Program-made: the position numbers and the translations under genes
Shown here: positions 8,803 to 46,401 of the stretch, one piece after another
Layout: every line of letters starts with the position of its first letter
How positions within the stretch are numbered: position 1 is the stretch's first letter
Notes under the pieces: generated by a model
Seen by the model: only the letters and a program-made list of their open reading frames with translations
What the model was told of the DNA's origin: nothing
The model's database searches: none
Assembly (NCBI RefSeq): GCF_030689645.1
Contig: NZ_JAUYFU010000110.1
Span: forward strand, 1-64,000
DNA from: Humidesulfovibrio sp.
GTDB taxonomy: Bacteria > Desulfobacterota > Desulfovibrionia > Desulfovibrionales > Desulfovibrionaceae
Length of the DNA stretch: 64,000 bases
Reading direction: 5' to 3'

Positions 8803-10676
8803 TATGCGTCTCCCTTGCGGGCCTTGATGTTTTTGCAGACCTGGAGGCAGAGCATGCAGCCCGCGCACAGGATGGGATCAATGGCCATCTTGCCGTCCTC
8901 CAGATAGAAGGCCGGACAGGCCAGGGTGTTCAGGCAGTCGCCGCAGGTTCCGTCCTTGGCCGCCTCGGCGCAGTCCCCGGCGACGTAGGCCACCTGGGTG
9001 CGCTTCATGCCGTAGGCGCGCCGGGCGAAGAGCGGGCAGGGCTCCTCGGCGATGAGCACGCGCACGCCGCTCATGGCCTTGAGCTCCTCGATGGCCTTGA
9101 GCGTGGCCTTCTGGTTGAGCGGATTCACCTTGCGGATCTGGGTGATGCCGATGCCGCGCACAACGGGCTCGATGTGCACGATGGACGGATTGTCGCCGAG
9201 GGTGGTCTTGTCCACGCTGGGGCAGGGCTGGTGTCCGGTCATGGCCGTGGTGCGGTTGTCAAGGATGACCAGGAGGATGTCGTGACGGTTGAACACCGCG
9301 TTCACCAGCCCGGTGATGCCGGAATGGAAGAAGGTGGAGTCGCCGATAAAGCCGACCACGGTCTGGCCGGAGGCCTTGGATACGCCGCAGCCCGAGGAGA
9401 CGCTCGATCCCATGCACAACAGGAAGTCCGCGGCCCTGAGGGGCGGTAGAATGCCCAAGGTGTAGCAGCCGATGTCGGAGGAGTAGACCGCGGTATCGCC
9501 GAAGATCTTGCGCACGGCCACGTAGGCGGCGCGGTGCGGGCACCCGGCGCAGAGGTTGGGCGGGCGGTTGGGCAGCGTCACAACGGGGTCCGCCCCGCAG
9601 GAGCAGGCGAGGGGGGCCGGGGCGGGCAGGCCCAGGGCGGTGCGCAGTGCTCCGGCCACCATGGCCACGTCGTATTCGCCGAAGCGCGGCAGCGGGCCGG
9701 GCGTCTTGCCCATGATGTTGATGCTGATGCCAAGCTTTTGCGCCAGGGCGCGGATCTCGGTCTCAAGCACCGGCTCAAGCTCTTCGATGATAAGAAGGGT
9801 GGTCAGGCCATCCATGAAGCTGGCGATGAGCTTCTCCGGCAGGGGATAGCTGAAGCCCAGGTCCAGCACTTTGACGGCGCCGGCCAGGTCGGCCTCGAGC
9901 AGGGCGTCGGCCAGGTAGGCGCGGCTGATGCCAGAGGCGATGACGCCCACCTTGCCCGCGCCGGAAACGGCGTTGAGGGGCGAGGTTTCGGCCAGGGTGC
10001 GCGCTTTATCCAGGGTTTCCAGCAGGCGCAGGTGCATGGGGCGGGCAAAGGCCGGAATGGGCACGAACTTCGAAGGATTCTTCTGGAAGCCCACGGGCGC
10101 TGGCAGCACGGTGGGCGCATCAAGCGTCACCGGGCCGCGCAGATGGTTCACGCGGGTGGTGGTGCGCAAAAGCACCGGAGCGCCCAGCTCGCGGGACATG
10201 ACGAGCGCGGTGCGGGTCATGTCCTTGGCTTCCTGGGCCGTGGAGGGCTCCAGGCAGGGCATGCCCGCGATGCGCGCGTAAATGCGGTTGTCCTGCTCGT
10301 TCTGGCTGGAATGACAGCCAGGGTCGTCCGCGCTCAAAAGCACGAAACCGCCGGGGCTGCCGACGTATGTCAGGGTGAGCAGCGGGTCGGCGGCGACGTT
10401 GACGCCCACGTGCTTCATGGTCACCAGGGTGAGGGCCCCGGCAAGGGTGGCGCCTCCGCCAACCTCAAGGGCCACTTTCTCGTTCACCGAGTACTCGAAG
10501 GTGTACGAGGCCTCTGGCGAGAGGCGGAAGAAGGTGTCGGGGACCTCGGAGGAGGGGGTGCCGGGATAACAGCTGATGAATTGGATGCCGGCCTCAATGG
10601 CGCCGCGCACGATGGCCTCGTTGCCGAGGAGCAGGTGCGTTTCGCCGGGAGCGCCAGCCAGAAGGGGGTGCGCCAT
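8802..10676 (-). CDS. iorA: Indolepyruvate:ferredoxin oxidoreductase, alpha subunit
   Basis: IorA is the catalytic subunit. Residues about 10-380 hold the pyrimidine-binding and transketolase-like domains (GNEAIVRGAIEAG, FISCYPGTPSSEV). The thiamine-pyrophosphate motif follows as GDSTFFHSGITGLVNAVFN with LVILDN. The C-terminus carries cysteine clusters, including CAGCMLCLQVC, for the 4Fe-4S centres that pass electrons to ferredoxin. The length, 624 residues, is normal. It starts 15 bp after the preceding TPR gene and runs into iorB. Confidence 0.96.
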   Translation of the reverse strand: MAHPLLAGAPGETHLLLGNEAIVRGAIEAGIQFISCYPGTPSSEVPDTFFRLSPEASYTFEYSVNEKVALEVGGGATLAGALTLVTMKHVGVNVAADPLLTLTYVGSPGGFVLLSADDPGCHSSQNEQDNRIYARIAGMPCLEPSTAQEAKDMTRTALVMSRELGAPVLLRTTTRVNHLRGPVTLDAPTVLPAPVGFQKNPSKFVPIPAFARPMHLRLLETLDKARTLAETSPLNAVSGAGKVGVIASGISRAYLADALLEADLAGAVKVLDLGFSYPLPEKLIASFMDGLTTLLIIEELEPVLETEIRALAQKLGISINIMGKTPGPLPRFGEYDVAMVAGALRTALGLPAPAPLACSCGADPVVTLPNRPPNLCAGCPHRAAYVAVRKIFGDTAVYSSDIGCYTLGILPPLRAADFLLCMGSSVSSGCGVSKASGQTVVGFIGDSTFFHSGITGLVNAVFNRHDILLVILDNRTTAMTGHQPCPSVDKTTLGDNPSIVHIEPVVRGIGITQIRKVNPLNQKATLKAIEELKAMSGVRVLIAEEPCPLFARRAYGMKRTQVAYVAGDCAEAAKDGTCGDCLNTLACPAFYLEDGKMAIDPILCAGCMLCLQVCKNIKARKGDA

Positions 10677-30453: not shown

Positions 30454-30532
<79 letters not shown>

Positions 30533-30545
30533 TTTCCCTCAAAGA

Positions 30546-30587
30546 GAACAGCCACTTAGGAAAATCCTAGGTGGCTGTTCTTGTTTT
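30546..30587 (+). terminator. Hairpin terminator just inside the element
   Basis: A 16-bp stem (GAACAGCCAC... with ...GTGGCTGTTC, one G-T pair) with an AAA loop is followed by TTGTTTT. It belongs to the element and now terminates the tRNA transcript, in place of the host terminator displaced to 46409. Confidence 0.85.
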
Positions 30588-30598
30588 CTACGGTCTCT

Positions 30599-30628
30599 GT
30601 GTCAACTGCTTGTGTCAACAGTTGACAC
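30599..30628. repeat. GTGTCAAC repeats, probable integrase arm or operator sites
   Basis: GTGTCAACT (30599-30607) is followed by the perfect 17-bp palindrome GTGTCAACAGTTGACAC (30612-30628), just upstream of the integrase start. The 9-mer GTGTCAACT recurs next to the other end of the element at 46249. Confidence 0.6.
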
Positions 30629-30645
30629 GGAATGAGGGTAAAAGT

Positions 30646-31854
30646 GTGGCTATTTCAGCCTATTGCAGCTATTGTCGTTCAACTTCACCTCTCACACTCA
30701 AACTCTGCCAGAAATGTGGTGAACCCTTAACAGGGAGTGCGCGAGCTTTCAGGGTACGGGTTAAGACTCCCAGCGGTTGGAAGAGTCGCGTGGTGTCTAC
30801 TCTTAAGGAGGCCAAAGCGCTGGAATCCGAGTTTGAAGGTTCTGAAGGCGCTGGGACGGGACAAGCAAGGCAGTCGAACCAAGTTGTCTCGCACACTCCC
30901 CAAGCCAGGCGCTCGCTAATCAAACCCCACGGGCTGACTTTCGCGCAGGTGTGGGAGCAGTTTTATCCTTGGGTTTGCCTGAGAATCAAAGACCCTGCCT
31001 TCTATGAAAACAAGTGGCGCAATCATATCGCGCCAGCGTTTGCCAACAGGACGCTTGAGAGCGTCACGACCAATGAGCTAAATGCGTTCTTCGCCAAGCT
31101 ACGGCAAAGTCCTGTGGCCCCCATGCCCTTCAGGAAGGCTAAACCAAGGGTAATGGCTATGAAGACCGCCCTGGACATCGTTAAGGCGGTTGGACGGCTC
31201 TACTCATATGCTATCGAAGACACTGACCCACCCTTGTACACGGGCTCAAATCCTTTCAGAAGGTTCAAGCCTCCTAAGTTTAATAACAAAGTTACCAATG
31301 ACCTAAACCTTGAGCAGAGTAGAAGGTTAATTGAGGTCTTAGACGCATGGGACAATCGCCCTGCCGCCTTAGCCTTTAAGCTCTGCCTCATGACGGGCAA
31401 GCGCACGGGTGAAGTCTTCCCTCTGGTCTGGCGCAACGTAAACCTAGAAGCCGGATTCATCCGTTTCATCGTCAAGAGCCGCACTCAGGACGACATTCAG
31501 AATTACCCAATCAGTCCAGGCGTTAGGCTCATTCTGGAAGAGGCTCTAAAACTGCCGCAAATGGCTTCAGGACTCGTTTTCCCTTCGGAGGCTGACAAGG
31601 TCATTCTGTATCCAAAAATTTGGGAGAGAATCAAAATAAGAGCGCGTATCCCTCAAGAGACACGCGCCCATGATTTGCGCCATACCTTCGCCAGCCGTTT
31701 ACTCAGTGAGAGGAAAGCAACTCTGGCTGAAGTTCAGAAGCTCCTTAATCATAAGAGCCCCCAGATGACAGAGCGTTATGCTCACCTGGCAGATGATGCC
31801 ATGAGGCGAGCTGCTCAGGCTGTTGATAGCCTTTTTGGAGGGAGTGATTCTTGA
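30646..31854 (+). CDS. int: Tyrosine-type site-specific integrase
   Basis: This integrase inserts and excises the island at the tRNA-fMet 3' end. The product is 402 residues from the GTG at 30646, which has GAGGG seven bases upstream; the open frame runs back over the palindromic repeats to 30571. The N-terminus is a zinc ribbon (CSYC...CQKC). An Arm/core-binding region follows (LTFAQVWEQFYPWVCLRIKDPAF). The catalytic domain shows Arg in MTGKRTGEVFPLVW, HDLRHTFASRLL, and LNHKSPQMTERYAHL with the nucleophilic Tyr. All catalytic residues are present. Confidence 0.92.
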   Translation: MAISAYCSYCRSTSPLTLKLCQKCGEPLTGSARAFRVRVKTPSGWKSRVVSTLKEAKALESEFEGSEGAGTGQARQSNQVVSHTPQARRSLIKPHGLTFAQVWEQFYPWVCLRIKDPAFYENKWRNHIAPAFANRTLESVTTNELNAFFAKLRQSPVAPMPFRKAKPRVMAMKTALDIVKAVGRLYSYAIEDTDPPLYTGSNPFRRFKPPKFNNKVTNDLNLEQSRRLIEVLDAWDNRPAALAFKLCLMTGKRTGEVFPLVWRNVNLEAGFIRFIVKSRTQDDIQNYPISPGVRLILEEALKLPQMASGLVFPSEADKVILYPKIWERIKIRARIPQETRAHDLRHTFASRLLSERKATLAEVQKLLNHKSPQMTERYAHLADDAMRRAAQAVDSLFGGSDS

Positions 31855-31979
31855 ATCAATAGAACTGGCGAACGTCAGGTTATGAACCCGACCATAAAGA
31901 ATCAACTACAGCAGAATCCCAAAAATTTACAGCAATGAGTGTCTAGTACGTCCCTGAAAAAAGTATACATTACGTAGGG

Positions 31980-32008
31980 GGTGTCAAAAACTGACACTCA
32001 AACTGACA
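31980..32008. repeat. GTGTCA/TGACAC repeats after the integrase gene
   Basis: GTGTCA (31980-31985) and two TGACAC copies (31991-31996, 32003-32008) lie in the gap of about 310 bp between the integrase and the HEPN gene. They share the core of the sites at 30599-30628. Nothing else is recognised in this gap. Confidence 0.5.
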
Positions 32009-32164
32009 CAGGTTAGAGGGGGAGATAAACATTAGTAGACCGTGAAGGCGGGGTTATGGTTTTATAGTTAAGAGCAAAAAGAGAAATGAGATTTAGCATT
32101 GCCCCATTTATCCGCCAACGCCAGGCCCTCTTGGGTAGGACGCATTAAAACTTCCTGGAGGGGG

Positions 32165-33958
32165 TTAGTGGGAAACAATAAACGGATTACCATGGCCAAA
32201 AATAAATCCACTCGCATTTGAAACTGTAATATTTGTATTCTTACATTCAAGACTGTTCATATGCGCAGAATGCAACATGATAATCTTCTCAAGGTTTTGC
32301 GTTATTGAGAGCTTTGGATTGCTTAGTGACAGCCTTATAAGCGATACAATTATGGTATCGAAATATGAGTGTAAGTGTTCTATGAGGGACTTTATGAATG
32401 ACAACACTCTCGCCCTATGAACAATTTGGTTTCTCACAAGGTATATCCTTCTAATATGCCAATCCAGCCTTTCACAATGCTTTTTGTAAGTCTTATAGAT
32501 ATCCCCAGTTGTAGAGTAGCTGTTTGATATTGAGGCGCATCTATATGCAAGCAATGGGTTGTCAAGATTACTGATAAACGCATCTCGAGATGCCTTGTGT
32601 TCTGCTGTTGTTAAAAAAAACATGGCTTTGTTGTAGTTCTCGCTATCAGTAATGGCATCAAGGGTCGCTTTTCCTGTGTTTGAAACTGCGCATATATCAT
32701 CATAAGCGGATTCAAAAATCTTAAACGGGTACGTCACTGTCAGTAATGGCAATATGTATTGCAAGTAAATCTCAATCCGATGCTCACCATGTAGTGGTTG
32801 AGGAAGAAATCCCTCTATGGCAGACCAGATGTCAAGCAGCTGGTTTTCTTCATTTAAGCTGACAGCCGCCGCTTGATGCAAATCAAATGAACGCAAAAAC
32901 TTCATCAGTAAATCACTACTATACTGACCAGATAGCAAAAGTTTGTTACTATTCAAAAGTAGCTCTTCTCGTTCAGTATGCTTAAGCATTGCACCCATTT
33001 TCATTGCATTTTGTTCACTGTTTATGCAAATGCACTTGTCGTTTTCGTCAATTACTAAGCATCTAAACGAGCATCTTGTCAGTTCAGTATGGTTGTGAAA
33101 ACTTGAAATACCGAACAGCATGCTCAAGACGGACCTTGCATATGATATGGCGGTGTGTGGCTCTTTTGCGCGAACTTCGTTGATAACGATATAGCTAGTC
33201 AATCGCTTGTCTTCTTGATTCAAGAGATTTAGTTTAAGCCGATTTGTTGTTTTGATTGACCCGCCATTCTGCTTCGAAATTTTAAATGTTTTTGCAATGT
33301 CAGGAGCAATTTCTAACTCTGCGCTACACTTAAATACGATTGTGAAATCCTTAGGCGCCATACTAAACAGCTTTAAGAAATCTGAAATCTGTTTGTGGTC
33401 CGTGATTTTCTTAGGGGCTACCTTTGGACTAAAAAAAAACTTTTTCGTCATGTGATATGCGTATTTTCCGCTAATGTTGTTTTCGTCTAGTTCGCTGCAA
33501 AATGCCAAGGCAAGCTTACGGATTGTCTCTTTTTCTGCAGGTTTTCCAACATACTCTTTAATCCTTTTATTCAGCTCTTTCCAGTAAGTCTTGCAAATTT
33601 CTTGCTCTATATTGCATGCAATAACGTGAACTCTTTCTTTGTTTTTTATTTGCGAAGTGAGTCTTCCAATGTAGATTTTAATTTCTTTCTTTTGTTGCCC
33701 TGTAAGCACAGCATCACTTTCGACTTTGTATTTAAGCTCTTCGATGCAATAATTCAAACTTGATTCAGGTGTGTGGTTTTGAGAATACTCAGAGCATAGG
33801 TATCTTAATTCATGACAGCATAGATGCGTGCTCAATGAAGGGGCACGATATGAATCTATGGTTTCATAACAAAGAGCCTCTTCAAGAGCTTGCGCAAAAA
33901 ACAGTAATCCCTGACACCTTGTTGGGTTTTGCCACTTTGTCATGTCTAGTTTTTTCAT
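32165..33958 (-). CDS. Candidate HEPN-domain defence protein (ApeA/Abi-like)
   Basis: This is a 597-residue, AT-rich gene with no close relative that I can name. Near residues 509-514 it has RNQIVH inside RLDWHIRRIYLVRNQIVHRA, the RNxxxH active site of HEPN ribonucleases. About 120 residues earlier lies LLDIWSAIEGFLPQPL, the helix that often precedes the HEPN core in ApeA-like proteins. The N-terminal 350 residues are an unrecognised, probably sensing, region. The start at 33958 follows GGAGGGG; a GTG nine bases upstream is an alternative. HEPN proteins of this build cut RNA to stop phage growth; that role here is inferred from the motif and from its place in a mobile island. Confidence 0.65.
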   Translation of the reverse strand: MKKLDMTKWQNPTRCQGLLFFAQALEEALCYETIDSYRAPSLSTHLCCHELRYLCSEYSQNHTPESSLNYCIEELKYKVESDAVLTGQQKKEIKIYIGRLTSQIKNKERVHVIACNIEQEICKTYWKELNKRIKEYVGKPAEKETIRKLALAFCSELDENNISGKYAYHMTKKFFFSPKVAPKKITDHKQISDFLKLFSMAPKDFTIVFKCSAELEIAPDIAKTFKISKQNGGSIKTTNRLKLNLLNQEDKRLTSYIVINEVRAKEPHTAISYARSVLSMLFGISSFHNHTELTRCSFRCLVIDENDKCICINSEQNAMKMGAMLKHTEREELLLNSNKLLLSGQYSSDLLMKFLRSFDLHQAAAVSLNEENQLLDIWSAIEGFLPQPLHGEHRIEIYLQYILPLLTVTYPFKIFESAYDDICAVSNTGKATLDAITDSENYNKAMFFLTTAEHKASRDAFISNLDNPLLAYRCASISNSYSTTGDIYKTYKKHCERLDWHIRRIYLVRNQIVHRARVLSFIKSLIEHLHSYFDTIIVSLIRLSLSNPKLSITQNLEKIIMLHSAHMNSLECKNTNITVSNASGFIFGHGNPFIVSH

Positions 33959-34105
33959 TGCTCTCACCCCTCCCCCAAAAGAAACTTGGTATTCGCTATA
34001 CTATCAATGTGCCATTGTCAATTTGCCGTAGCATTCCTCATTTCGCGCTGTTTCAAATCGTATGTTTTCTGGTATGGCGATTGGGCGCTATCGTTTGCTG
34101 TCGCA

Positions 34106-35146
34106 TTAACCAAAAATTGCGCTAGTTGGCGTTAATTTTTGCAGCAAGAAGCTTTTGATTCCAGTTCGTACCCACTCTTTGACGGAGATACCCGCTGCGG
34201 CCATATCACCCACGTCCTTTCCAACACTTACTGGCCAGTAAAATGCGTTAGTAAAGTTCTGCTCCCACCATGATTTTGCTGCAATACCAGCTTCATCGTA
34301 GTCAGTAGCCAACAGGATAATCTTTGCATTATTGAGCAACCTGGTAGTCTCAATGTCAGGCCTGTTTGATGCTGAACGAAGGGCAATCACAGAGGCCCAT
34401 ACTTTCGCTTCCTGGGCCACTAAGAGCGCATCAAGCTCGGACTCGACCACAACCACGCATGGGCCGCCAGGAAGCCTCAGGGGGGTCATAGAGCTACCTG
34501 GAACAACGATGTACTTACCCATGCCTTCGGAATCATTCCAGGGATATCTCCTGACCTTGATATCGACCACGGTACCATTGGCAATCGTAGGGATAACCAA
34601 GCCCTTAGAAACGAATAGTTTCTTGGGGGGTCTTATCTGAGGATTGGTTTCAGGTTTGAAGCCCCAGTGCTCTCTGGTGAGGCAAAGGTCATCGGGATTC
34701 CAACCAATTTTATAAGACTTAATGGTTTCATTGGTCAATCCTCTGGACAGTGCATACTCCATCCCCTGCTTATCCAGGCTGATATATTTGGCGCATTGGT
34801 CAACAAGTATGTTGGCTTGTGCGGTCCAATCGTCATTGGGAAGGGCTGAAGCTTTGGGTGTCCATCTTTCAACCTTAGGCTCTGGGCTCCTAAAAATTTC
34901 CTTCTCTTTGCCCTTGTCCTTGGGTTTGATACCAAGACGCTCACAAGCCTGAATATAGCTCAGTCCTTCGGTGTCATGGAGAAACTGAGTTTCATCACCT
35001 GACCAATTGCAGACCCTACACCAGAAGCGACCTTGGTCGGGCCAAGTAATGAATCTATCATCTCCACCACACTTAGGGCAGGGTCCACAGAATTCGGCGG
35101 AACCCCCTTTCTGTTTAGAACCTAACAAAGGGAAAATATTATTCAT
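34106..35146 (-). CDS. Zinc-finger/Toprim primase of the element
   Basis: This 346-residue primase has an N-terminal CHC2-like zinc finger (CGPCPKCGGDDRFITW and FWCRVCNWSGDE) and a Toprim domain (CVVVVESELDALLVAQ and ILLATDYDEAG). It resembles the primase half of phage and satellite replication proteins. It lies 256 bp downstream of the RepA-like ATPase on the same strand, with the iteron region between them, so the two probably replicate the excised element. Confidence 0.88.
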   Translation of the reverse strand: MNNIFPLLGSKQKGGSAEFCGPCPKCGGDDRFITWPDQGRFWCRVCNWSGDETQFLHDTEGLSYIQACERLGIKPKDKGKEKEIFRSPEPKVERWTPKASALPNDDWTAQANILVDQCAKYISLDKQGMEYALSRGLTNETIKSYKIGWNPDDLCLTREHWGFKPETNPQIRPPKKLFVSKGLVIPTIANGTVVDIKVRRYPWNDSEGMGKYIVVPGSSMTPLRLPGGPCVVVVESELDALLVAQEAKVWASVIALRSASNRPDIETTRLLNNAKIILLATDYDEAGIAAKSWWEQNFTNAFYWPVSVGKDVGDMAAAGISVKEWVRTGIKSFLLQKLTPTSAIFG

Positions 35147-35228
35147 ATATTAGCCATCCAATTTTCAATCCATCCCCAATAGGGGGGAGGAACAATCTAG
35201 TGTTACTTCCCCCTTTAGGGGGAGACGT

Positions 35229-35370
35229 TGGATTCTAGATTATTCATACGAAATATGAATATTTTAGAATCCAAAAAGGTCTGGATTCTGAAGGGTGTGG
35301 ATTCTGAAAACTTATTATTTTCCTAGATAATCCAGAATCCACCACCTAAAATAACCACTTTTGAATCCAG
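35229..35370. repeat. Iteron cluster, candidate replication origin
   Basis: TGGATTCT occurs at 35229, 35282 and 35298, and its complement AGAATCCA at 35266 and 35334. Degenerate copies are at 35329 (AATCCA) and 35362 (TGAATCCA). An inverted repeat ATTCATA-n5-TATGAAT lies at 35242-35260, and G/C hairpins at 35209-35222 precede the cluster. The stretch is AT-rich and sits between the primase and ATPase genes, the usual place for an origin bound by iteron proteins. Confidence 0.6.
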
Positions 35371-35402
35371 AACTTACAAGCCACCCGTTTTAATCTTACT
35401 AA

Positions 35403-36680
35403 TTACTGCACGGTCACAAGGCACTCTACAGTTCTGTTAGTATCCGAAGAGGTCCTCTTTACCCAGCTAAGTTTACCGCTCTTAACAATCTTTTCAACAG
35501 CATACTCAGTTTCGGACTGGGTATAAGAATGCCCAGATTCCTTAAGATGCTTGGACAAATTCTTTTTCACATGAGTTCTAGTCATCAATGTATTTCCAGA
35601 AGCTTCCGATTTCTTCACTTCATTAATAATGAAATCAATGATTGCTTCGTCAATCGTGTCAAACTCTTCAATATTCTTAAGGTCAAAGAACTCAAGATAA
35701 CCACCTTCTGTCCTGCGAAGAAAGAGAACATCTTCAGGAGGGCCATAGTTCTTTTTCACGACCTTAATTGCAATAAACTCGCCATCTTTGGGCTTATTGT
35801 CGAGTTTAAACTCTTTCTGAGCCCAAGCGCCAGGGAGAGAAACCATATTTAACTGCCAACGAGAAGCACCAGTGAAGGCCGTAGCACCACGAATAGAATC
35901 CTGGTGAAGAGCAGATTCAAGGTTAAAGCTTTTACCTCTGGGAATGCTCACCTTGTTGGTATGATGAACACAGAGAACGGTAGCACCAGTTTCATGAGCC
36001 AGTCTTTCCATCAAGGTACAGAAAATACTGGCGATGCTGTTGCTGTTTTCATCCTGGCCGTACACTCTGCTCATAGGGTCAATCACAATCAAGGACAGGT
36101 TCTCAATTCCCTTGGCGAACTCAGTGAGAAGATTAAACTCTTCAGACTCTGCGATAGACTTTCCATCATTCTTAAGAAGCAGTAGATTCTCACCGAAGCC
36201 AGGGTAGGTGAACATGTTGTTTTCTATTCTTTCACTAATCATTTCACGCTGAGTTTCGTCGTGTATAGACTCCAGCATGCGTTTAACGACAGTTTTTACT
36301 CTAACATTCAGAATGTCCGCATCTTCTTCGCAAAAGACACCCAGGACAGCCCCATTCTCTCTCGGAACGAAATGGTACCCAAAGAGTCCCTTCCCCGCAG
36401 CAATTGCAGCAAGCAATTGAAGGGCAAAGAAGGACTTACCAGTACCAGGAGGGGCAACAATCAGCCCAAAAGTCTTTCTCAGAAGAGAATCAAGGATGAG
36501 CCAGGCGATTTCAGGAGGAACGGTCTTGAGGATGTTCTTGACCCTATACCTATCATAATCGCCCTTCTGGAAGGGTTTCTTTGACGAAGAAGGGGAGGCT
36601 TTAGCCATACCCTGCCTCTCCATATCAGCCACAGCTTCTTTACGTGCATTGACCTGTTCGAGGATTTCGGTGCCGCTCAT
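35403..36680 (-). CDS. RepA-like RecA-fold ATPase (probable replicative helicase)
   Basis: This 425-residue protein has Walker A LIVAPPGTGKSFFALQLL, Walker B LSLIVIDPMSRVYG and VLCVHHTNKV, matching the hexameric RepA/AAA_25 ATPases of plasmids and satellite phages. The C-terminal 100 residues look like a winged-helix region (HVKKNLSKHLKESGHSYTQSETEYAVEKIVKSGKLSWVKR). The ATG at 36680 has GGAGGT upstream and overlaps the stop of a 65-residue ORF (ATGA). It is probably the helicase partner of the Toprim primase. Confidence 0.85.
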   Translation of the reverse strand: MSGTEILEQVNARKEAVADMERQGMAKASPSSSKKPFQKGDYDRYRVKNILKTVPPEIAWLILDSLLRKTFGLIVAPPGTGKSFFALQLLAAIAAGKGLFGYHFVPRENGAVLGVFCEEDADILNVRVKTVVKRMLESIHDETQREMISERIENNMFTYPGFGENLLLLKNDGKSIAESEEFNLLTEFAKGIENLSLIVIDPMSRVYGQDENSNSIASIFCTLMERLAHETGATVLCVHHTNKVSIPRGKSFNLESALHQDSIRGATAFTGASRWQLNMVSLPGAWAQKEFKLDNKPKDGEFIAIKVVKKNYGPPEDVLFLRRTEGGYLEFFDLKNIEEFDTIDEAIIDFIINEVKKSEASGNTLMTRTHVKKNLSKHLKESGHSYTQSETEYAVEKIVKSGKLSWVKRTSSDTNRTVECLVTVQ

Positions 36681-36874
36681 ACAGCACCTCCATCCATCAA
36701 ACAAATGATAGCAGGTGCGAAAGAAAGTCTCGTGATAGGGGTGGCAAAAGGAGCGCCATTCTTCCGACTGGGCACAGCTTTTTCTGCGGGTATAATGCGC
36801 GTGGTGTTATGACAATTGTGAGAATTTTTCCTTCTCGCGTGAAACAGCGTAGACTTGTGAAAATTAGTAAACAT
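36677..36874 (-). CDS. Small basic protein coupled to the RepA-like gene
   Basis: This 65-residue product is rich in Arg, His and Asn. I do not recognise it. It is supported by GAGAGGTA about eight bases before the ATG and by the four-base overlap (ATGA) with the next gene, which implies translational coupling. PSRKNGAPFATPITRLSF is the only conspicuous stretch. It may be a regulator of the replication genes. Confidence 0.5.
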   Translation of the reverse strand: MFTNFHKSTLFHARRKNSHNCHNTTRIIPAEKAVPSRKNGAPFATPITRLSFAPAIICLMDGGAV

Positions 36875-37733
36875 AGCTTTTACCTCTCTAATTATCCTCC
36901 TATTTCACAGCATGTTTCAGGTTAACGTTAAGAGCCTAAAAATGTTTGAAATAGCAAGTTATGTGGTTCTAAGGAATACGACCTTAGCCAGAGTTGTTGG
37001 TGTTGGTTGCTATTAAGTCATAATTTCTCCTTATGGTTGATGGTTACCACTGCCCCTGCTGTTTCAATGTCACATTCCAAGAAACAAACGTTGGGCTTGG
37101 GGTCTCGTCCTAAAACCTGGATACATTCTATACGATATTTCTGGCAAAATCAACCCTAGTTCTGAAAAAAAGTGAAAGATTTTGGTTAGTAAATAAAATA
37201 GAAATTGTGATTATAAAGACGGCAGAAGCAGAGGGTTTTGCTCCTGGGCAATTACGCCAGAAATACTGAATCAGCAATCATTTTAGGGCCATAAGCGTGT
37301 TTAAAGAGTGTTGCCAAGTCCATTGTTAACGCTGAAAAAGCCTTTCGCCTGAAGTTTATAATCGGCTTCGAAAGCGGCGCGCCCCTGCCAAGAGGACAAC
37401 AAGACGCTGTTTTGAGAAACATGCTCCGGCTAAACAACCCGGCTCTTTGACGTGTCCGAGCCCAACCTCAATCAAGAAGCCAACCAGTTCTTGGGTTCCA
37501 TGCTTATAGCGGCCTGGTCTTGCTTCCTGCTATTCAATGAAAGCCCTTTAATTCCAAAGAATCCTGTGCTACGTAGCAACCAATTTCGAACCCGGAGAAC
37601 CTTCATGTGAACAGTAGCCAACTAATTGCAGCGCTTTCCGAGCATAGGAACCTGAAGACCGAAGAAGCCACTATCCTTCACAACGACGAACGTTGATTCC
37701 AGATTATATCGAACAGACAGAGAGGGGTTGGCA
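36875..37733. other. Long AT-rich gap in the element
   Basis: These roughly 860 bp lie between the replication genes and the next plus-strand gene. I find no ORF with a credible start and composition; a 61-codon minus-strand frame at 37252-37437 lacks support. The divergent layout means that promoters for both sides should lie here. The element's regulatory centre is a plausible content, but no operator is recognised. Confidence 0.4.
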
Positions 37734-38647: not shown

Positions 38648-40549
38648 ATGAACGTTAATATTAAAAGTTATGTTAAAAGACTTGGAAGAGTTCACCTCCT
38701 CGACACGGTTGTTGAAGCCGTAGCGAACTCTTTGCATGCAGGAGCACATAGCATTAAAATTTCAGTTGATTATACGGATATGCTTGATAATGAAAAGTGG
38801 ATAAATGGTTTGTCGATTTGTGACGATGGCGAAGGTTTTCACAATGAAAACCAAGACTCTTTTAACGAATTCATGTCTGATTATAAATTGGCTCTTGGCT
38901 GCAGAGGAGTCGGGAGGTTTGCCTTTTTAAAAGTGTTCTCTATTGTGGAATATGTTAGCATTTACAAAGATAGTGGTATCTTTTACACTGTAAAATTCAA
39001 TTTTAGCGAAAAGTTTTCAAAGGACGCATTTGTTAAGAGCGAAAGCTTGCCCTCAAATACTGGAACAGTCGTAAGTTTTTCAATGGTTAACGAAAAGTAT
39101 AAAGACAAAAGCTGTAGGGCATTCAACGTTGGGCAAGTTAAGGAATACATCATTCACAAGCTTATTGCAGAATTGTCTTTGATTGACAGTTTTTGTATTG
39201 ACATACGTGGGTCTGATGGGACTCGCGCGGCAATTGATGGAAATGATATCCCAAAGCTGTCTGCACATGAATTTATAATTAAACAAAAAGATACCGATAA
39301 TATGCTCAACGGTTCAAGTTTAGAGAAAAAGTTTACTTTGAAATATAGCTTTTGCGACAACGGAGACGTTAAATCATATTTCTGTGTAGATAATAGGACA
39401 GTACAAGAAACTGGATTGAGCATACGCCTTTGTGATGGTACAGGAGGTCTTTTTTTGTTGTCTAGTGACTACATAAGCAGATATGTAGACGACATGCGGA
39501 CAAAAGTTGCAATTCCGAAAGATGCGGCCATAACAATGGCTAATATAAAAGAGTGTGCATCCGAGCAGCTTACCAGTATTATTACTGCTAGATTTCCTGA
39601 AATTCATGATAAAAACATAAAAACTGTTGATGATGTGTCTAAGAAATACCCGTACCTGAAACGTCATTTAGGTAAAAGTACGTCAATTGGGGTTTATGAC
39701 AAGAAAGAATTAGTTAGAAGCGCGTTCGAATCTCAGCGAAAAGCAAAAGATGCTGTAATCAACGAATTAGACCAATTGACAACGAGCTATAACAAGCTGC
39801 TCGCTGAGCACAGTGTTTCAGAAGTTTTTATTGATAAGTTCGTGAGTCATATTGCGCACACCAATGAGATAAACAAGGAGAATCTTGTTGAATTTGTCTG
39901 GTACTCAGACACAATCATCGATTTTCTTTTGAACCTTATAGAAAACAATTTCGCTGATGAGGCGACTATACACAACATAATAGTTAAAATGAAAAATGAT
40001 TACTACACGTCGCAAGATGTTGTTCAGACAGAATTGAATAACATGTGGATATTTGGTCCACAATTTATGTGTTATGATTACATTGCCAGTGATAAGATGA
40101 TTAAATCTATTTTGGCGTCTTTGGATACTGATATGCTTGAGTCGCTTGATTTTTCTGAGAAAAAGCCTGATATTTTTATGGCCATGCCTTCTTCAGATAC
40201 TCGCAAGGCCTCAGATATCATTATATTTGAGTTAAAGAAGTCTAGCTCTAAGTTTTTTGAAAAGACGAAAGGTATACAGCAGATTGTAGCTTACGCGTCT
40301 GCTCTTTTAGAAAATTTAAAAACGATTTCTATAGTCTGGGGATACCTTGTTGTTGATGTAGACGAAACACTCGAGAAGCATTTAAAAACTGATGGATATC
40401 ACTATTCATACTCTGAACATGGCAAGGTCATGGTTAGATATTACGAAACTCTAAATCTTTTGCTTACTGTTGTTGACTACAAGGCTTTATTGTTTCTGGC
40501 AAAGTCAAGGAATAATATCTTTACAGATATCCTTACTAAACAAGTCTAA
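38648..40549 (+). CDS. GHKL (MutL/MORC-like) ATPase with C-terminal PD-(D/E)xK-like nuclease
   Basis: This 633-residue, AT-rich gene starts at an ATG with AAAGGA upstream. Residues 20-100 hold the GHKL ATP site: VVEAVANSLHAGAHSIKI (Asn27), SICDDGEGF (59-64) and LGCRGVGRFAFLKVF (lid glycines). Near residues 507-530 is PDIFMA followed by ASDIIIFELKKSS, which fits the Asp...ExK core of restriction-type nucleases, with KGIQQIVAYASALL after it. A coiled region (about 365-400) links the parts. Such MutL-like ATPases with nucleases are known from restriction and anti-phage systems, so a stand-alone defence role is likely. Confidence 0.72.
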   Translation: MNVNIKSYVKRLGRVHLLDTVVEAVANSLHAGAHSIKISVDYTDMLDNEKWINGLSICDDGEGFHNENQDSFNEFMSDYKLALGCRGVGRFAFLKVFSIVEYVSIYKDSGIFYTVKFNFSEKFSKDAFVKSESLPSNTGTVVSFSMVNEKYKDKSCRAFNVGQVKEYIIHKLIAELSLIDSFCIDIRGSDGTRAAIDGNDIPKLSAHEFIIKQKDTDNMLNGSSLEKKFTLKYSFCDNGDVKSYFCVDNRTVQETGLSIRLCDGTGGLFLLSSDYISRYVDDMRTKVAIPKDAAITMANIKECASEQLTSIITARFPEIHDKNIKTVDDVSKKYPYLKRHLGKSTSIGVYDKKELVRSAFESQRKAKDAVINELDQLTTSYNKLLAEHSVSEVFIDKFVSHIAHTNEINKENLVEFVWYSDTIIDFLLNLIENNFADEATIHNIIVKMKNDYYTSQDVVQTELNNMWIFGPQFMCYDYIASDKMIKSILASLDTDMLESLDFSEKKPDIFMAMPSSDTRKASDIIIFELKKSSSKFFEKTKGIQQIVAYASALLENLKTISIVWGYLVVDVDETLEKHLKTDGYHYSYSEHGKVMVRYYETLNLLLTVVDYKALLFLAKSRNNIFTDILTKQV

Positions 40550-44354: not shown

Positions 44355-44493
44355 TAAAGAGCGCGCCGGTACGATTGACTCGTGCTGCGTAAACGCGGCA
44401 TCAAGCACAATGGCTCCATGCAGCCATGTGTGTCGCACTATGACGATTGTTACTAGGTTCCACGTGTAAAGTAGAATCCCGGTGCGCTCTTTA
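44355..44493 (+). ncRNA. Candidate retron msr-msd RNA with a1/a2 arms
   Basis: The 15-base arm TAAAGAGCGCGCCGG (44355-44369) pairs with CCGGTGCGCTCTTTA (44479-44493): fourteen Watson-Crick pairs and one G-U in RNA. This is the a1/a2 design of retron ncRNAs. Between the arms are at least two stem-loops: TGCTGCG-TAAA-CGCGGCA (44383-44400) and ATGGCT-n6-AGCCAT (44410-44427). The a2 arm ends six bases before the reverse transcriptase start. The region of about 139 nt is non-coding. The branching G and the exact msr/msd border cannot be set by eye. Confidence 0.7.
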
Positions 44494-44499
44494 TAAACA

Positions 44500-46044
44500 A
44501 TGACTGAAATTCAAGAGCTTCAAACCATCCCACAGCTTGCGCAGTACCTCGGCTATGACGAGAGTTCTCTCCTGTCGTATCTGTACAAAGGCGTAGACCG
44601 GTATAGGGTATTTGCAATACCAAAAAAAACCGGTGGCGAACGAACAATACACTCACCATGCAAACAACTAAAGGAAATACAACGGAAGATATCTACGCTG
44701 CTACAAAAAATCTACACTCCTAAGCCCTCCGTTCATGGATTCATTCCCGACAGAAGTATTGTAACAAATGCTAAAGAACACAGTTCAAAAAAAGTTGTTA
44801 TAAACATTGATTTGAAAGATTTTTTCCCAAGCATAACGTTTCACCGAATCTATGGGACGTTCCGGTCGGGTGCGTATCAAATTCCGAATAATGTTTCCGC
44901 AGTCATAGCTCATGCCTGTTGCAGAAATGGAGCACTACCTATCGGTGCACCTAGTTCTCCTATTATATCTAATATGGTCGCCAAACATCTTGACACAGCA
45001 ATGCTTCAATATTGTAAAGCGCACAGCCTTAGATACACAAGGTATGCCGATGACATAACGTTGTCTACAAACAAAACTAAAGGTCTTTCAGCACTGCTGG
45101 CCTATTCTGGCACATCATTAGAATGGAGTGGCAGCCTAATTGACACCATCCATTCTACTAGATTTGAAATTAACCAAAGCAAGATACGGGTACAGCTTTC
45201 AACCGAGCGTCAGCGTGTAACCGGGCTAACGGTCAACAAGTTTCCAAACAAAGACAGAGGCTACATCAACAAGATTCGTGGAGCCTTGGCGAGTTGGGAA
45301 CATCATGGATACAAATCGGCTAACGACCACCACATCGCACTTCACGGAAACAAGAGCGGAGTGCTGTCAGATTATATTAGTGGATGCATGGCCCACCTGT
45401 TTGATGTACGCGGCCATGACAGCATTGTACTTTGCAATCTGATGAAACGATACTCTGCTTTGCTTGGGAAAGAACACGAGTGCCACAAAGACAATATTTC
45501 TAAATTATTAGACTCAACTCTTATTGCCTACGACGAGCACGGGGAAGAGATTGGCACGGCATTTTTACTCTATGGTATTGGAATCGTGACATGTAAACAT
45601 GTTTCTGAGTGTACCATCAAGATTGCCCATTGGAAAACCCAGGACAAGAAGTACTTTGCCGACGTGCATAAGGCGCACGACACTCTTGACATTGCCATTC
45701 TCAATGTTCCTGGATTTCCGAAAAACAAACACAGGAACTTGCGGATTGCCTCAAATACAGACAGAGATATCGGGTCAAAATATATGTTTTCAGGATTTCC
45801 AAACTATGCTGGAGGTCCGCCAAGCGTTTACAAGGGCACCATCGCGAACAAAGTGAATCAATGTGGTGGCAAGCAGTACAAGTTAGACAAGGACGTTTAC
45901 GGTGGAGCCAGCGGTGCCCCTTTAGTCGACAGCGACCTATATGTTATTGGCATTGTGACTCAAGGCTTTGGCTCTGACCACAAGCGTGGAGAAACGGATG
46001 CCCACCTGGCACTAAACATTTGCCATCTCTTGGAACTTATTTAG
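44500..46044 (+). CDS. Retron-type reverse transcriptase fused to trypsin-like protease
   Basis: This is a 514-residue fusion. Residues about 30-320 are a retron-like reverse transcriptase: INIDLKDFFPSI (first catalytic Asp, about 104), GALPIGAPSSPIISNMV, YTRYADDITLS (YADD at 182-185) and VTGLTVN (240-246), typical of retron enzymes. Residues about 335-514 are a chymotrypsin-fold protease with a complete triad: His367 in GIVTCKHV, Asp397 in TLDIAIL, Ser471 in GGASGAPLV. No signal peptide is present, so the protease is cytoplasmic. With the RNA arms directly upstream this is a self-contained retron whose likely effector is the protease. Confidence 0.88.
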   Translation: MTEIQELQTIPQLAQYLGYDESSLLSYLYKGVDRYRVFAIPKKTGGERTIHSPCKQLKEIQRKISTLLQKIYTPKPSVHGFIPDRSIVTNAKEHSSKKVVINIDLKDFFPSITFHRIYGTFRSGAYQIPNNVSAVIAHACCRNGALPIGAPSSPIISNMVAKHLDTAMLQYCKAHSLRYTRYADDITLSTNKTKGLSALLAYSGTSLEWSGSLIDTIHSTRFEINQSKIRVQLSTERQRVTGLTVNKFPNKDRGYINKIRGALASWEHHGYKSANDHHIALHGNKSGVLSDYISGCMAHLFDVRGHDSIVLCNLMKRYSALLGKEHECHKDNISKLLDSTLIAYDEHGEEIGTAFLLYGIGIVTCKHVSECTIKIAHWKTQDKKYFADVHKAHDTLDIAILNVPGFPKNKHRNLRIASNTDRDIGSKYMFSGFPNYAGGPPSVYKGTIANKVNQCGGKQYKLDKDVYGGASGAPLVDSDLYVIGIVTQGFGSDHKRGETDAHLALNICHLLELI

Positions 46045-46328: not shown

Positions 46329-46348
46329 CTATCTGAGAGATTGGAAAG

Positions 46349-46401
<53 letters not shown>

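Follow-up and report, generated by a model that had tools for sequence, protein, structure and literature searches.

The gene at 32165-33958 (minus strand) of the window, by which we mean the whole 64,000-nucleotide stretch of Humidesulfovibrio sp. DNA analysed here, raises the question of whether a large protein with an RNxxxH motif is an orphan with a new kind of sensor, as a preliminary description proposed, or belongs to a family that is already known. Its open reading frame runs from an ATG at 33958 to a stop codon ending at 32165 and codes for 597 amino acids. The mechanically called frame begins with a GTG at 33967 and has 600 aa; we consider the ATG the better start in view of GGAGGGGTGAGAGCAATG, which can be read as a Shine-Dalgarno sequence. 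The GC content of the gene is 38%, compared with 45% for the island that carries it and 63% for the remainder of the window. As described, the protein holds RNQIVH (residues 509-514) and, upstream of it, IWSAIEGFL (around W378-E382). Judged on its sequence, the window protein is a distant, diverged relative within the known ApeA defence family.

Taken alone, RNQIVH is weak evidence and does not go beyond chance, because 12% of 20,000 shuffles of the window protein contain R[NDH]xxxH; Rx4-6H is present in 95% of as many shuffles. The motif gains its significance from full-length homology to ApeA proteins of solved structure. In a phmmer search of solved structures, residues 9-591 of the 600-aa frame aligned with residues 6-582 of Ec2ApeA at E=1.6e-47, and the Ec2ApeA entries 9hxd, 9hxb, 9hxi and 9hxe ranged from this value to 4.8e-46. 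Ec3ApeA (9hxj) was likewise matched over its full length from the single sequence (E=8.9e-41), and the single-sequence matches to Ec4ApeA and Ec1ApeA were weak (2.8e-4 and 2e-3). A profile of 11 sequences, consisting of the window protein and ten relatives, matched Ec3ApeA at 3.8e-147, Ec2ApeA at 2.2e-140, Ec1ApeA at 1.2e-34 and Ec4ApeA at 2.6e-26. Therefore the term orphan was wrong, and the assumption of an ApeA-like HEPN protein is borne out over the whole length. The identities are low, i.e., 25.0% over 567 positions to Ec2ApeA and 23.6% over 571 positions to Ec3ApeA.

We read the gene, with a probability of roughly 0.9, as an ApeA of the Ec2/Ec3 branch, with an N-terminal sensing and assembly region and a C-terminal HEPN ribonuclease, carried as defence cargo on an integrated mobile island and predicted to cleave RNA when triggered by phage. 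Residues 346-597 (32168-32923, minus strand), searched alone, matched all four ApeA proteins, the best being Ec2ApeA at 2.4e-33. This is the predicted HEPN nuclease region, with R509, N510, H514 and the conserved acidic E382, and is so assigned from the structural model, conservation, and the Ec2ApeA and PADLOC matches; it is related to the HEPN regions of Ec1ApeA and Ec4ApeA (PDB 9hxn and 9hxm). Residues 1-345 (32924-33958, minus strand), the presumed sensor and assembly region by model and sequence match, gave Ec2ApeA at 2.1e-11 and Ec3ApeA at 1.2e-10, whereas Ec1ApeA and Ec4ApeA did not match them at E<=1. Because the latter two do not match these 345 residues by single sequence, the window protein lies nearer to Ec2/Ec3. 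The proposal of an undescribed sensor in the N-terminal 350 residues thus fails, since this region has homologs with deposited structures, and the orphan with a new sensor is rejected.

The same N-terminal region could nevertheless have diverged so far that a protein which is ApeA by descent, and otherwise works as in our main reading, answers to a trigger other than deoxydinucleotides, such as a phage protein or another nucleotide. Its match to Ec2ApeA is far weaker than that of the HEPN region, the overall identity is just 25%, and its lack of a match in Ec1ApeA and Ec4ApeA points the same way. On the other side, the relatives and both E. coli proteins agree without exception in twelve N-terminal columns (the start methionine and eleven more, the last being H290), and we regard a changed trigger as possible but rather unlikely. 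These columns come from an alignment of the window protein, ten relatives, Ec2ApeA and Ec3ApeA, in which columns with at least 12 of the 13 rows filled were tested and 27 were found to be invariant: M1 (the start, hence trivial), W9, L18, F21, E27, E50, E74, D82, I146, F175, A270 and H290 in the N-terminal part, and H361, W378, E382, Y410, L470, H494, W500, R504, Y506, R509, H514, L525, E527, H530 and Y532 in the C-terminal part. All 12 sequences that reach the motif have R509 and H514, and 11 of them have N510, which is replaced by a serine in one relative (L006). As these 27 columns are common to two solved ApeA proteins, they provide a short list of residues for tests of the sensor and of the active site.

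The PADLOC ApeA model PDLC02157, whose HEPN region is related to that of the window protein, matched it at E=8.2e-6 but over only 85 residues (461-545 of the 600-aa frame, profile positions 471-554 of 601), and it matched 7 of the 11 aligned members at E<=0.01. Pfam gave nothing for the window protein at E<=1 and nothing for any of the 11 members at E<=0.01, and an NCBIfam scan of the window protein also returned nothing. We take the Pfam models of ApeA type to be HEPN_Apea and ApeA_NTD1; they seem to be blind to the Ec2/Ec3 branch, because both halves of the protein match solved ApeA proteins and yet fall into no Pfam family. With none of the 11 aligned members matching Pfam and PADLOC seeing only seven, the spread of the branch is probably underestimated. 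PHROGs gave two weak matches to the window protein (E 0.033 and 0.14), which were taken as chance, and neither the phage records searched nor two scans of viral contigs contained a match to it.

A structure prediction from the single sequence was useless (mean pLDDT 34), and an alignment-based model (mean pLDDT 83.1, pTM 0.84) was used instead. The model consists of helices over residues 16-196, an alpha/beta part over 203-313 and a helical C-terminal region, in which helix 484-515 holds RNQIVH at its end and helix 522-546 comes next; the helical surroundings that had been described for the motif are therefore present in the model. HEPN domains carry their motif at such a helix end, according to Anantharaman et al. 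(2013; PMC3710099), and in the Rx4-6H motif of the window protein a polar residue follows the arginine. By fold, a HEPN bundle around the motif was neither demonstrated nor contradicted: the motif sits in a confidently modelled helical region, but the fold comparison returned just a weak HEPN match, to Csm6 in VIA-align (Z 6.3, rmsd 4.4, 120 aligned, residues 337-545). The best VIA-align rows were helical bundles around residues 40-125 (Z up to 9.9), which possibly reflect just a common arrangement, and IS200/IS608 transposases were matched over 199-307 (Z up to 5.7). Foldseek comparison of the model with the PDB and with viral models gave no match with E<=0.001, and solved ApeA chains were absent from the best 50 of 213 Foldseek matches and from the best 50 VIA-align entries. 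The ApeA assignment therefore is one made from sequence, and no claim made here rests on fold matches.

Among characterised proteins, Ec2ApeA of E. coli strain 2-156-04_S4_C1 (PDB 9hxb, 9hxd-9hxi) shares with the window protein RNxIVH, W500, R504, Y506, E382 and the twelve N-terminal columns, and differs from it at three quarters of the aligned positions. Its 9hxi deposit has 10 chains; a large oligomer, like the reported activation by deoxydinucleotides, would apply to the window protein by analogy with characterised ApeA proteins. Ec3ApeA is alike over the full length, with the lower identity given above. The proteins with ApeA-NTD1 plus HEPN described by Anantharaman et al. are alike in their C-terminal ApeA-type HEPN domain with Rx4-6H, but ApeA-NTD1 is given there a length of about 300 aa and a mainly beta-stranded make-up, whereas the corresponding part of our model is helical and then alpha/beta. 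The window protein extends the Ec2/Ec3-type ApeA proteins by one diverged member; in other respects its gene is an ordinary defence-island gene.

ApeA is described as a known anti-phage HEPN system, and deoxydinucleotides are named as its activators in the title of a 2026 preprint cited in PMC13405049. By analogy, the window ApeA would be inactive in the uninfected cell. Phage infection would lead to DNA breakdown and so to a small product, a deoxydinucleotide if the analogy with characterised ApeA holds, which would bind the N-terminal or middle region of the protein. Binding would make the HEPN active sites (R509, N510 and H514, with the aid of E382) functional, and the nuclease would then cut RNA, perhaps tRNA, so that translation and the growth of both phage and cell would stop. 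The window ApeA is probably an RNA-cutting abortive-infection effector that may protect its host from phage. Both ligand and substrate may differ from those of Ec2ApeA, because the identity between the two proteins is so low.

The relatives were collected in a way that limits what can be concluded from them. Nine of the ten aligned relatives were fetched from genome contigs by means of two short peptide patterns, of which one was [QE]GLLFFAQ, and hence form a biased sample; the tenth (L002) was found by a whole-protein search. The pattern scan returned 10 loci, all of them with GLLFFAQ, and the conservation of this segment among them is circular because it was used to fetch them; Ec2ApeA and Ec3ApeA lack the pattern and were not selected by it. 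The records containing these loci are titled Saccharibacteria, Cellulophaga, Fulvivirga, Methanoregula, Methanobrevibacter, Parabacteroides, Rhodoferax, Geobacter, Flavobacterium and Gallionella. Because several of these records are metagenome bins, their titles may be wrong; taken as given, they place relatives in Bacteroidota, in Rhodoferax and in two archaeal metagenome bins, among other places. The ApeA of the record titled Saccharibacteria (L005) is 75% identical to that of Flavobacterium (L013), and because of this the Saccharibacteria label is probably wrong. The 11-sequence alignment (A2) omits a 203-aa ORF with the HEPN part only (L003, from genome G195), a distant relative (L004, from G210), a fragment of 69 residues at a contig end (L014) and two plasmid proteins (L037 and L038); L012 was kept, although a contig end cuts it before the motif.

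In a sample of 395 genomes of the host phylum, four matched at E<=0.001, including the window's own. Of the other three, G208 scored highly with a full-length match, G210 had a weaker match that covers most of the protein, and G195 matched in the HEPN part only. The two other genomes of the host genus in this sample had no match, and on plasmids two Bacillales proteins matched over residues 354-544 only. Having distant relatives only, and none in those two genomes of its genus, the gene might be suspected of being decaying or inactive cargo; we consider this improbable, since the frame is open over 597 codons, the catalytic residues are kept and the ribosome-binding sequence is good. The 203-aa ORF of G195 (L003:1366-1977, minus strand) has an ApeA-type HEPN end that matches residues 462-550 of the query, and it opens with what may be the beginning of a type I methylase subunit; a fusion or a deletion may have produced it.

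ApeA is a single-gene system, and the claim of a single-gene system for this locus agrees with the gene context of the 11 loci, several of which are cut by contig ends: the sole neighbour family seen twice was HsdS-like (in L008 and L013), and no obligatory partner was evident. The preliminary description was also right about the absence of a toxin-antitoxin partner, none being seen among the flanking genes, which encode an integrase and a DnaG-like primase. A HEPN toxin of a HEPN/MNT-type toxin-antitoxin pair, silenced by its partner and stabilising the island, would account for the HEPN motif and for carriage on a mobile island with an integrase, but is highly unlikely and was rejected for want of a partner, there being no adjacent nucleotidyltransferase antitoxin gene and no family other than the HsdS-like one that recurs among the 11 loci, and the full-length match being to ApeA.

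Neighbours were analysed with PADLOC at four of the ten relatives' loci, which had been picked for their defence-like appearance, and all four gave defence genes: DUF4297-HerA in L006, an AriA/OLD-like ATPase and PDC-M36A in L009, type I restriction genes in L008 and a type I methyltransferase in L013. These neighbourhoods fit a stand-alone defence gene. Embedding of ApeA in R-M operons in epsilonproteobacteria is described in PMC3710099. In L008, the Methanoregula ApeA is followed downstream by a small ORF (9939-10304, minus strand), which presumably resembles a DUF86/HepT-type HEPN protein.

The window ApeA lies on a mobile island. A 53-bp direct repeat, identical at 30480-30532 and 46349-46401 (plus strand), bounds an AT-rich stretch of about 15.9 kb. 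The first copy of this attachment-site repeat extends from inside a tRNA-Met gene (CAT; 30454-30530, plus strand), the integration site, to just past its 3' end; the second forms the far island end, identified by its identity to the first and by a partial tRNA match at 46330-46388. The island's tyrosine integrase is encoded at 30571-31854 (plus strand; Phage_integrase, 1.5e-21). Upstream of apeA and on the same strand are the DnaG-like primase with zinc finger and Toprim (34106-35146, minus strand; Pfam matches under the cut-offs, phrog_47 DNA primase at 9.1e-23) and an AAA_25 ATPase (35403-36704, minus strand; 9.1e-35), RepA-like by our reading; these two genes (34106-36704), which lie beside apeA, suggest a probable replication module of the island. 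A promoter and terminator scan of 31800-37000 found 15 promoter-like sites versus 10.3 (sd 2.5) in shuffles and 5 terminators versus 4.2. No promoter-like site directly precedes apeA on the minus strand, and therefore apeA could be transcribed together with the primase gene. The island also carries a resolvase and a ROS/MUCR regulator. The island ORFs that were searched against Pfam included none named as a phage structural gene.

Other cargo of the island includes a fusion of a reverse transcriptase with a trypsin-like protease (44500-46044, plus strand), which matched the PADLOC model RT-Protease_XI (type XI retron) at E=1.3e-151. Just upstream of it, at 44355-44493, is a candidate msr-msd RNA closed by the long complementary pair AAAGAGCGC... 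/ ...GCGCTCTTT, with a folding z-score of -4.94 and no Rfam match. ApeA and the retron might be thought to form one circuit, with the retron as bait and ApeA as executioner, in which phage would attack or degrade the retron msDNA and the deoxydinucleotides released would switch ApeA on; since the idea draws only on the two genes sharing an island and on the ligand reported for ApeA, we give it very little credence. The gene at 38648-40549 (plus strand) encodes 633 aa with a GHKL ATPase domain at the N-terminus (HATPase_c_3, 5.5e-10); its product had no PADLOC match at E<=0.01, and it is a candidate uncharacterised defence gene.

The left flank of the island was found in 14 of 15 genomes of the genus (its own included), in G402 only partly, and the fifteenth genome (G397) had only short matches. 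Islands between copies of the repeat hold type I restriction genes in two related genomes, G404 and G401; in G401 the scan covered one of two stretches, the other being L029. Integration at the tRNA-Met end thus recurs within the genus, and some of the islands there bear defence cargo. The island of G403 has no defence-looking gene by our reading, and a long ORF on it presumably resembles a formate dehydrogenase. Stretches at the tRNA-Met end in related genomes (L024, L026, L027 and L028) have integrases that are only 28-33% identical over the long matches.
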